This document shows, piece by piece, positions 32,419-34,737 of a stretch of DNA of 64,000 nucleotides. The DNA comes from Burkholderiales bacterium (GTDB lineage Bacteria > Pseudomonadota > Gammaproteobacteria > Burkholderiales > WYBJ01). The notes under the pieces are model-generated. The model did no database searches and was not told where the DNA came from. It saw nothing but the letters and a program-made list of their open reading frames with translations. The position numbers were made by a program, and so were the translations under genes. Within the stretch, counting starts at the first letter, position 1; each line of letters opens with the position of its first letter. The DNA is taken from contig JALHQN010000001.1 of assembly GCA_022841915.1 (NCBI GenBank), positions 186,001 to 250,000 on the forward strand. The letters are read 5' to 3'.

Positions 32419-32645
32419 TGCGGTAGGGGATGCGCCGGGTACGCTCGCTCAGGAGCCACGCGAGCGAAAGGCGCGAATTCTACCGGAAACCGGCAAATAC
32501 CCGCAGTGTTTCCCGGCATTGCTCCCTGCTGCGACGGATGCTCGCGCCCGCGCGTCGCGCACACGCGTAGACGGTCACGGCGCAGTCGACTCCGCCGCAA
32601 ACCCCGAATACACTCGAACTGCACTCGGAACCTCAAGGAAAACCC

Positions 32646-33293
32646 ATGAATCCCAAGCTCACGATCGATATCGTATCCGACGTGGTTTGACCGTGGTGCT
32701 ACATCGGCAAGCGGAGACTGGAGGCAGCCATCGAGCTGTACCTGCAGGAAGCGCCCGATGAGCCCAAGCCGGCCGTGCGCTGGCTGCCATTTCAACTCAA
32801 TCCTGACCTGCCCGCCGAAGGAATATCGCGCCAGGCGTATATCGAGCGCAAGTTCGGCCCGGGAGGTTCCAGCAACTACGCTCGAGTGACGAGCGTGGGC
32901 AAGGAAGTCGGCATCGAGTTCGCTTTCGAGGCGATCACCATCCAGCCGAACACGTTGAACGCGCACCGGCTGATGCACTATGCAACGCAGCACGGTCGGG
33001 ACGACGCCGTGGCCGAGAGCCTTTTCCGCGGCTACTTCGAAGAAGGCGCCGTAATCACCGATTTGGCCGTGCTGACCCGATTGGGCGTCCGCGCACGCCT
33101 GGAGGAGGCACCCTTGGCCGCTTACCTTGCCTCCGATCAAGACCACGATCTTGTTCTCGCGACGGATCTCCAGGCAAGACAGGCAGGCATAGGCGGCGTG
33201 CCCTTCTTCATCTTCAATCGCAAGGTTGCGGTCTCGGGTGCGCACGAACCCGAAACATTGCTCGGCGCGATGAAGCAGGCGCTCGAAGACTGA
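32646..33293 (+). CDS. FrnE-like DsbA-family oxidoreductase, candidate selenoprotein (in-frame TGA at the active-site Cys)
   Basis: Read through one TGA, this is a 215-residue thioredoxin-fold protein of the FrnE/2-hydroxychromene-2-carboxylate isomerase-like DsbA family. The frame starts MNPKLTIDIVSDVV, then TGA (32688-32690, codon 15), then PWCYIGKRRLEAAIE. Family members have CPWC here, so the TGA replaces exactly the nucleophilic first Cys and the product would be U-P-W-C. The rest is intact: LNPDLPAEGISRQAYIERKFG, LNAHRLMHYATQHG, and the cis-Pro loop GVPFFIFNRK. The ATG has AAGGA 7 nt upstream. A start after the TGA (for example a GTG at 32775) would lose the active site. There is no signal peptide, as for cytoplasmic FrnE. 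A nonsense mutation or sequencing error is the alternative. Confidence 0.82.
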
Positions 33294-34194: not shown

Positions 34195-34737
34195 TCATGC
34201 GAATCGCATGTGCCTCTGGCGTCCTGCCAGAATGGCAGACCCAATCGCAAGCAGCCCCAGCAGCACGAACCACACCAGCGACCACCCAGCGATGGTGAGT
34301 CCCAGAAACGTCCAGCCCTTCTCCGCACATTCCCCGGACCCACGCAATATGAGGTCGAGCGCCTTGCTCAACGGAAATCGGGAAATGATGAAATCCAGAC
34401 CGGGGCCGCATTCAGGCACGAGGTGCTTGGGCAGGCTTTGGAGCCAGACTTGGCGTCCGGCAACGGCGCCGCCCGCGATCGCGAGCAACGACAATGTCGC
34501 TGCGTAAACGACATGGCCGCCTCTGCTGCGCGGATTGTGTAGTGCAGCCAGCAGAAACACGCCCCCGAGCGCGATAAACGCAATCCGCTGCACCATGCAC
34601 AGCGGACACGGATCCTCGCCCACCACGTGCTGCAGGTAAAGCGCGAAGCCGATCAAGCCGGCACACACCAGGAATCCTGCGAGATAGCCGTGTCGAGCCG
34701 ATAGCTTGAACATGTTGGTCGCCAGAGGAGTTGTCAT
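34195..34737 (-). CDS. dsbB: Disulfide bond formation protein B
   Basis: A 180-residue four-helix inner-membrane quinone reductase that reoxidises periplasmic DsbA. Both cysteine pairs are present: C44/C47 in GEDPCPLCMVQR and C110/C137 in VPECGPGLD and GSGECAEKGW. The second Met (MFKLSARHGYLAGF, eight residues in) is also a possible start. It is convergent with the YdcH-like gene. Its proximity to a DsbA-family gene at 32646 is notable, but that protein lacks an export signal, so a direct partnership is not implied. Confidence 0.94.
   Translation of the reverse strand: MTTPLATNMFKLSARHGYLAGFLVCAGLIGFALYLQHVVGEDPCPLCMVQRIAFIALGGVFLLAALHNPRSRGGHVVYAATLSLLAIAGGAVAGRQVWLQSLPKHLVPECGPGLDFIISRFPLSKALDLILRGSGECAEKGWTFLGLTIAGWSLVWFVLLGLLAIGSAILAGRQRHMRFA

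Follow-up and report, generated by a model that had tools for sequence, protein, structure and literature searches.

A candidate selenocysteine-containing FrnE-type oxidoreductase of Burkholderiales and a conserved hairpin past its in-frame TGA

Results

An frnE gene with an in-frame TGA at its active site

The DNA analysed here is a stretch of 64,000 nt (the window) from a Burkholderiales bacterium whose genome is a 6.21 Mb draft of 66 contigs. The window holds an frnE gene (Table 1) with a single internal TGA, at codon 15, followed by CCG TGG TGC (Pro-Trp-Cys). An earlier note on this DNA had described this TGA, a good ATG with an upstream AAGGA, and a frame that stays open to a normal stop with family-typical sequence, and all three are borne out. 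We found that the read-through product matches the Pfam DSBA family (PF01323) with an E value of 2.5e-35 and 122.5 bits (cut-off 25.6) over residues 6-209, and an NCBIfam scan of the product at E 0.01 gave no match. The product has a GVP loop, which we take to be the cis-Pro loop, and GVP or SVP is present in 39 of 40 relatives. No leader sequence was seen.

Table 1. Positions in the window of the Sec-type frnE gene and its features
Feature	Position	Strand	Remarks
AAGGA, likely ribosome-binding site	32635..32639	+	sequence; 6 nt ahead of ATG
Sec-type frnE gene	32646..33293	+	215 residues including Sec15; stop TGA 33291-33293
In-frame TGA, codon 15, proposed selenocysteine codon (motif U-P-W-C)	32688..32690	+	same site in 71/71 TGA genes
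TGC = Cys18, resolving Cys of UPWC	32697..32699	+	sole Cys of the protein
5' arm CATCGG, conserved RNA lower stem	32702..32707	+	first base 12 nt past last TGA base
3' arm CCGATG, conserved RNA lower stem	32755..32760	+	conserved, paired in TGA genes
Whole proposed Sec-insertion hairpin, 59 nt	32702..32760	+	predicted -25.0 kcal/mol; predicted apical loop 32729-32734

Three distinct sequences of solved structure match the product: 5cnw and 5cp1 (both 'FrnE protein') and 3gl5 (SCO1869, putative DsbA oxidoreductase). The best is 5cnw, FrnE of Deinococcus radiodurans (DR_0659; E 1.8e-38), and residue 15 of the window protein aligns with its residue 22, which is described as the first Cys of the CxxC motif (PMC8945050). 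The TGA thus stands where the active-site Cys of FrnE/DsbA proteins would be, as had been claimed. The prediction that a standard gene caller would start past the TGA also holds: under table 11, the frame yields an ORF of 172 aa that starts at GTG 32775 and has no active-site motif.

A dsbB gene (PF02600, E 5.2e-45) lies on the minus strand at 34195-34737, about 0.9 kb past frnE. Among six relatives inspected by eye, the genes adjoining frnE have no common context.

A different genetic code, with TGA read as an amino acid throughout the genome, has nothing beyond the TGA itself to recommend it. Both frnE and several of its relatives' genes end in TGA, and the other genes of the window read under table 11, so we give this explanation a negligible probability.

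The TGA is conserved in two families

Of 60 relatives, 24 have an frnE homologue, with the TGA form in G000-G003 and in G048, which belongs to f46, another family of the order. All four genomes of the window genome's genus have the TGA form, the other three being 70-77% identical. In a sample of the order, 156 of 399 genomes match; among the matches listed there are 15 TGA forms (four of the genus and 11 of f46), and two other matches carry TAA. The other 141 matching genomes lack the TGA form, Cys forms being commoner across the order. Within family f46, 67 of 74 genomes match and 66 of the 74 have the TGA form. The 67th match (L248, G428:C402:747-1421) is a decayed Cys-type frnE remnant with CPWR and then a stop. 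In the phylum sample (176 of 398 genomes match), TGA is listed, among the matches listed, for only one genome besides that of the window, G741, and we rejected it as a TGA form, its own CPWC being intact. Codon 15 is hence TGA in close relatives and Cys in farther ones; the earlier note had suggested this comparison of homologues.

Across both families, we inspected singly 71 TGA genes in 70 genomes (one genome, G431, has two) and found the TGA at the same place, within U-P-W-C, in every one, with conserved sequence before and after it. The equivalent of Cys18 is Cys in 40/40 genes of the first set, and PWC is present in all 31 of the second. In the first 40, the frame is open for 195-209 codons past the TGA (in one gene to the end of its stretch); the second set was selected for at least 100 open codons past the TGA, and none of the 31 genes sought failed. 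Over at least 100 codons past the TGA, no extra stops or frameshifts were seen in the 71 genes, and the one decayed copy, in G428, is Cys-type. For eight pairs, dN/dS past the TGA is 0.08-0.21, i.e. purifying selection.

With the column that tells Sec from Cys masked, a quick method gave a tree of 100 rows: 40 Sec, 35 Cys from Burkholderiales and a random 25 of the remaining Cys rows. One branch (support 70) separates all 40 Sec rows from the rest; together with L126, a Cys paralogue on a long branch, they form a group with support 97 that is placed among the Burkholderiales Cys rows. The simplest reading of these sequences is a single Cys-to-Sec change followed by inheritance, the placement of L126 being unsure.

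These results bear on whether the window gene is an ordinary Cys-type frnE with a nonsense mutation or a sequencing error. One change from TGC or TGT to TGA would suffice for this, and Cys forms prevail in the order. The same TGA, however, recurs in 71 genes of 70 genomes, the frame past it is open and under purifying selection, the Sec forms are one group in the tree, and an RNA stem (below) is specific to the TGA forms. Hence, a random nonsense mutation, which the earlier note had also argued against, or an error is very improbable.

Family f46 also has a second, distant DSBA-domain gene (L217, G425:C79:13379-14921, minus strand; 34% identity, PF01323 114.6 bits) with a TGA at the same motif place (U-P-F-C). 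It is perhaps another Sec-type DsbA-like protein.

The genome has the Sec machinery and other TGA genes

The earlier note had proposed a search for selA, selB, selC and selD, and we found all four in the genome of the window. The tRNA-Sec gene lies at C1:637593-637683 (75 bits, cut-off 47; anticodon TCA), directly preceded by selA (573.8 bits) and selB (434.5 bits), both above their cut-offs, and selD is on contig 28 (424 bits, cut-off 125). In control genomes the same searches give matches in 14/14, with scores above the cut-off in five for tRNA-Sec, two for selB and two for selD.

Two further genes have an in-frame TGA. One is selD itself (L099, G000:C28:17953-18882), where the TGA has the context GGG-U-GCK and a hairpin comes next, its loop predicted as GUU; nearby, on the opposite strand, is a frame that by eye resembles selenouridine synthase. 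The other is a stretch like formate dehydrogenase alpha on contig 15 (fdh; L155, G000:C15:76739-77530), in which one in-frame TGA is followed by GUCCCC-GGUCU-GGGGAC, a textbook SECIS-like hairpin with the GGUCU loop on a six-pair stem. The best named model for the 264 residues scanned is formate dehydrogenase-N alpha, at 295.9 bits, which is below the whole-protein cut-off. The genome also has the Cys paralogue of frnE (L126), 49% identical.

The TGA form goes with tRNA-Sec

tRNA-Sec scores split into a group of at least 67 bits and a group of at most 52 bits, and we took the upper group as true, a threshold of our own. In the order sample 60 genomes were scored, namely the 15 TGA genomes and the best 45 of the 141 other matching genomes, which is a non-random draw; tRNA-Sec was found in 15/15 and 17/45, respectively. 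In family f46 it was found in 63 of 66 TGA genomes and in four of the eight others. Overall, tRNA-Sec is present in 67/70 TGA genomes vs 17/45 of the Cys genomes examined, with relatives counted that are not independent. None was found in the TGA genomes G400, G430 and G431, which are bins 80-86% complete. A genome can have the machinery without the Sec form, as the 17 of these 45 Cys genomes with tRNA-Sec show.

A hairpin past the TGA is conserved in the TGA forms

Folding the first 45-63 nt past the TGA in 14 genes gave no shared fold. A longer hairpin was found at columns 15-73, numbered from the U of UGA. Its lower stem, CAUCGG/CCGAUG (columns 15-20 and 68-73), begins 11 nt after the UGA, is nearly fixed in the 40 TGA genes of the first set and is paired by RNAalifold. 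An Asp codon in this stem is GAT in 40/40 Sec genes vs 6/23 Cys forms in which the residue is Asp (of 102 Cys forms, 71 have a gap and eight another residue in this column), and the other Asp codons of the same 40 Sec genes are GAT in 197/497. The codon ahead of it ends in C in 40/40 Sec genes; at base 15, 38 of them have C and two have U, and C is found in 64 of the 102 Cys forms. Constraint on the protein alone does not explain the conservation of the stem bases.

Full pairing of the stem was found in 39 of the 40 Sec genes, in 3 of the 102 Cys forms (all three among the 35 from Burkholderiales) and in 20% of codon-shuffled Sec genes. Compared with their own codon-shuffled versions, columns 15-73 of the 40 Sec genes have a mean z of -2.1 (34 below -1), and the same fold test on 35 Cys forms gives a mean z of -0.03, with three below -1. 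When the gene is divided into 11 segments, z is -0.7, -1.6 and -2.1 for the three whose start lies at or ahead of the hairpin, and -0.5 to +0.8 for the other eight.

Because this segment was picked after inspection of the first 40 genes, we used a held-out set, the other f46 TGA genes, 30 of whose 31 members differ from the first 40. Of these 30, 28 are fully paired and 29 have z below -1 (mean -2.4). The stem Asp site is GAT in 26, GGT (Gly) in three and AAT (Asn) in one, and the third base of this codon is T in all 71 TGA genes. The GGT variants retain a U-G pair in the stem, and in one held-out gene (L246) both sides of pair 18-70 are changed, from C-G to U-A, despite the change from Asp to Asn. 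No stem pair has such a double change in the first 40 TGA genes. Full pairing thus holds for 68/71 TGA genes vs 3/102 Cys genes. The held-out genes are akin to the first 40; therefore, the confirmation comes from a single lineage, and P values would exaggerate its strength. Taken together, the comparisons support a hairpin under selection past the TGA of the TGA forms; the Cys forms lack it.

Two other helices were considered. The helix of columns 49-54/58-63, which some genes fold, has pairing in 70.4% of cells and was rejected as a shared element. The stem of columns 23-27/40-44 was not counted; by eye, its Arg and Ala codons are also in Cys forms. Synonymous conservation in blocks (14 Sec and 102 Cys forms) is nothing special at codons 8-14; synonymous identity in the 14 Sec vs the Cys forms is 0.67 vs 0.51 for codons 22-40 and 0.69 vs 0.54 before the TGA. 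Of the raised codons 22-40, only 22-23 fall in the stem (32754-32760).

The hairpin departs from the SECIS consensus

In a published bSECIS model, a stem of 4-16 bp bears an apical loop of 3-9 nt, one of whose first two bases is G; the loop lies 16-37 nt from the UGA, and the MFE is at most -7.5 kcal/mol. Some genes do not fit the model (PMC13188914). The MFE of the window hairpin (columns 15-73) lies far below this limit, but its predicted loop, CAUCGA, is 38 nt from the UGA and has no G in the first two bases. At 16-54 nt past the UGA of the window frnE, there is no hairpin with at least four uninterrupted pairs and a G at loop base 1 or 2 (bulges disallowed). A simple consensus scan (at least four uninterrupted pairs, loop of 3-9 nt, G at loop base 1 or 2, 16-37 nt from the UGA) found hits in 16/40 Sec vs 45/102 Cys forms, i.e. 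no discrimination, and none in the window gene. Hence, we rejected the frnE hairpin as a consensus bSECIS and propose it as a Sec-insertion hairpin whose shape is non-consensus. The SECIS check suggested by the earlier note is thus answered in part: a conserved hairpin does follow the TGA, but a predictor based on the consensus would probably miss it.

The frnE, fdh and selD elements of the window genome have in common a helix that starts 11-13 nt past the UGA; the predicted selD loop is at 20 nt and that of fdh at 18 nt from the UGA. It is possible, though we would not call it probable, that the Sec-insertion elements of the frnE genes in both families are a class of their own: 59-nt hairpins whose defining part would be the lower stem, 11 nt past the UGA, in place of a short stem topped by a loop with G first. 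The same SelB would then read both this element and the GGUCU fdh element in one cell.

The departure from consensus also fits an explanation without Sec, in which a near-cognate tRNA or release-factor failure gives low-level readthrough of the UGA and the hairpin only stimulates it. A hairpin past a stop codon can raise readthrough. Against this, it is precisely the redox nucleophile that is recoded, 67 of the 70 genomes with the TGA form have tRNA-Sec, and the helix starts where those of fdh and selD in the same genome do. We therefore consider readthrough without Sec improbable, if less so than a mutation or an error.

Discussion

Since relatives keep the TGA, the machinery and the hairpin, the internal stop is almost certainly read as Sec. 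We conclude that the gene very probably encodes a thiol-disulfide oxidoreductase of the FrnE subfamily of the DsbA family, with Sec in place of the attacking Cys of CPWC. In the mechanism that we propose, SelD would make selenophosphate, SelA would turn Ser-tRNA-Sec into Sec-tRNA-Sec, and SelB, presumably held by the hairpin based 11 nt past the UGA, would bring Sec-tRNA-Sec to the UGA; without Sec insertion, the product would stop after 14 residues. The pair Sec15/Cys18 should alternate between selenolate/thiol and selenenylsulfide. In the attacking position, Sec would be expected to make exchange faster and to help the enzyme recover from over-oxidation.

The protein is probably cytoplasmic, given that no leader was seen. 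By analogy with Deinococcus FrnE, it may reduce or isomerise disulfides when the cell is under oxidative or metal stress. In the published description, the Deinococcus protein is an oxidoreductase predicted to be cytoplasmic and proposed to reduce disulfides, and its mutant is more sensitive mainly to cadmium and diamide (PMC8945050). Because the genome holds both, the Sec frnE and the Cys paralogue L126 may divide the work.

Our findings add a lineage-wide selenoprotein to Burkholderiales. They also give 71 natural sequences for asking what SelB requires, useful because the fdh, selD and frnE elements appear to share little beyond the helix start. Such genes are probably under-annotated, since a caller using the standard code loses the active site.

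The window frnE has the same Pfam family and the same UxxC motif as the DsbA-like UxxC selenoproteins (COG2761 / PF01323), COG2761 being, we assume, the FrnE group. This kind is already known, since DsbA-like UxxC selenoproteins of COG2761 were predicted from the Sargasso Sea in 2005 (PMC1088965). The same kind is named 'DsbA 1' in the GOS study of 2008 (PMC2398784), is reported in genomes such as those of Anaeromyxobacter, Desulfovibrio and Desulfotomaculum (PMC1794560), is counted as 45 proteins across 41 organisms (PMC5029168), and is given as a DsbA-like selenoprotein in a 2022 review (PMC9312934) and as 'DsbA-like protein form 1' in a 2026 review (PMC13188914). For Betaproteobacteria, the 2006 survey, in the sections covered here, gives one selenoprotein family, FdhA (PMC1794560), and a term search of the main text of the deep-Sep paper (PMC12013277) gave no DsbA or FrnE. 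In the literature on FrnE or COG2761 selenoproteins, in which few subscription papers were covered, only the 2005 Sargasso Sea paper pairs COG2761 with selenocysteine, and the papers that name FrnE together with selenoproteins do not, by title, deal with bacterial selenoproteins; that on DsbA-family, Burkholderiales or betaproteobacterial selenoproteins, with similar coverage, gave by title nothing on this clade or hairpin. Hence, the Burkholderiales branch of DsbA-like selenoproteins and its hairpin appear to be new.

The known COG2761 selenoproteins are reported from marine metagenomes and from genomes such as those named above, whereas the clade described here belongs to Burkholderiales. 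Compared with FrnE of D. radiodurans (5cnw), the window protein has Sec for the first Cys of CxxC, and it lacks the C-terminal CXXXXC of the Deinococcus protein because Cys18 is its one Cys. The consensus bacterial SECIS of fdh in the same genome resembles the frnE element in the start of its helix, 11-13 nt past the UGA, but has a six-pair stem with GGUCU at 18 nt, whereas frnE has a 59-nt hairpin with a predicted CAUCGA loop at 38 nt.
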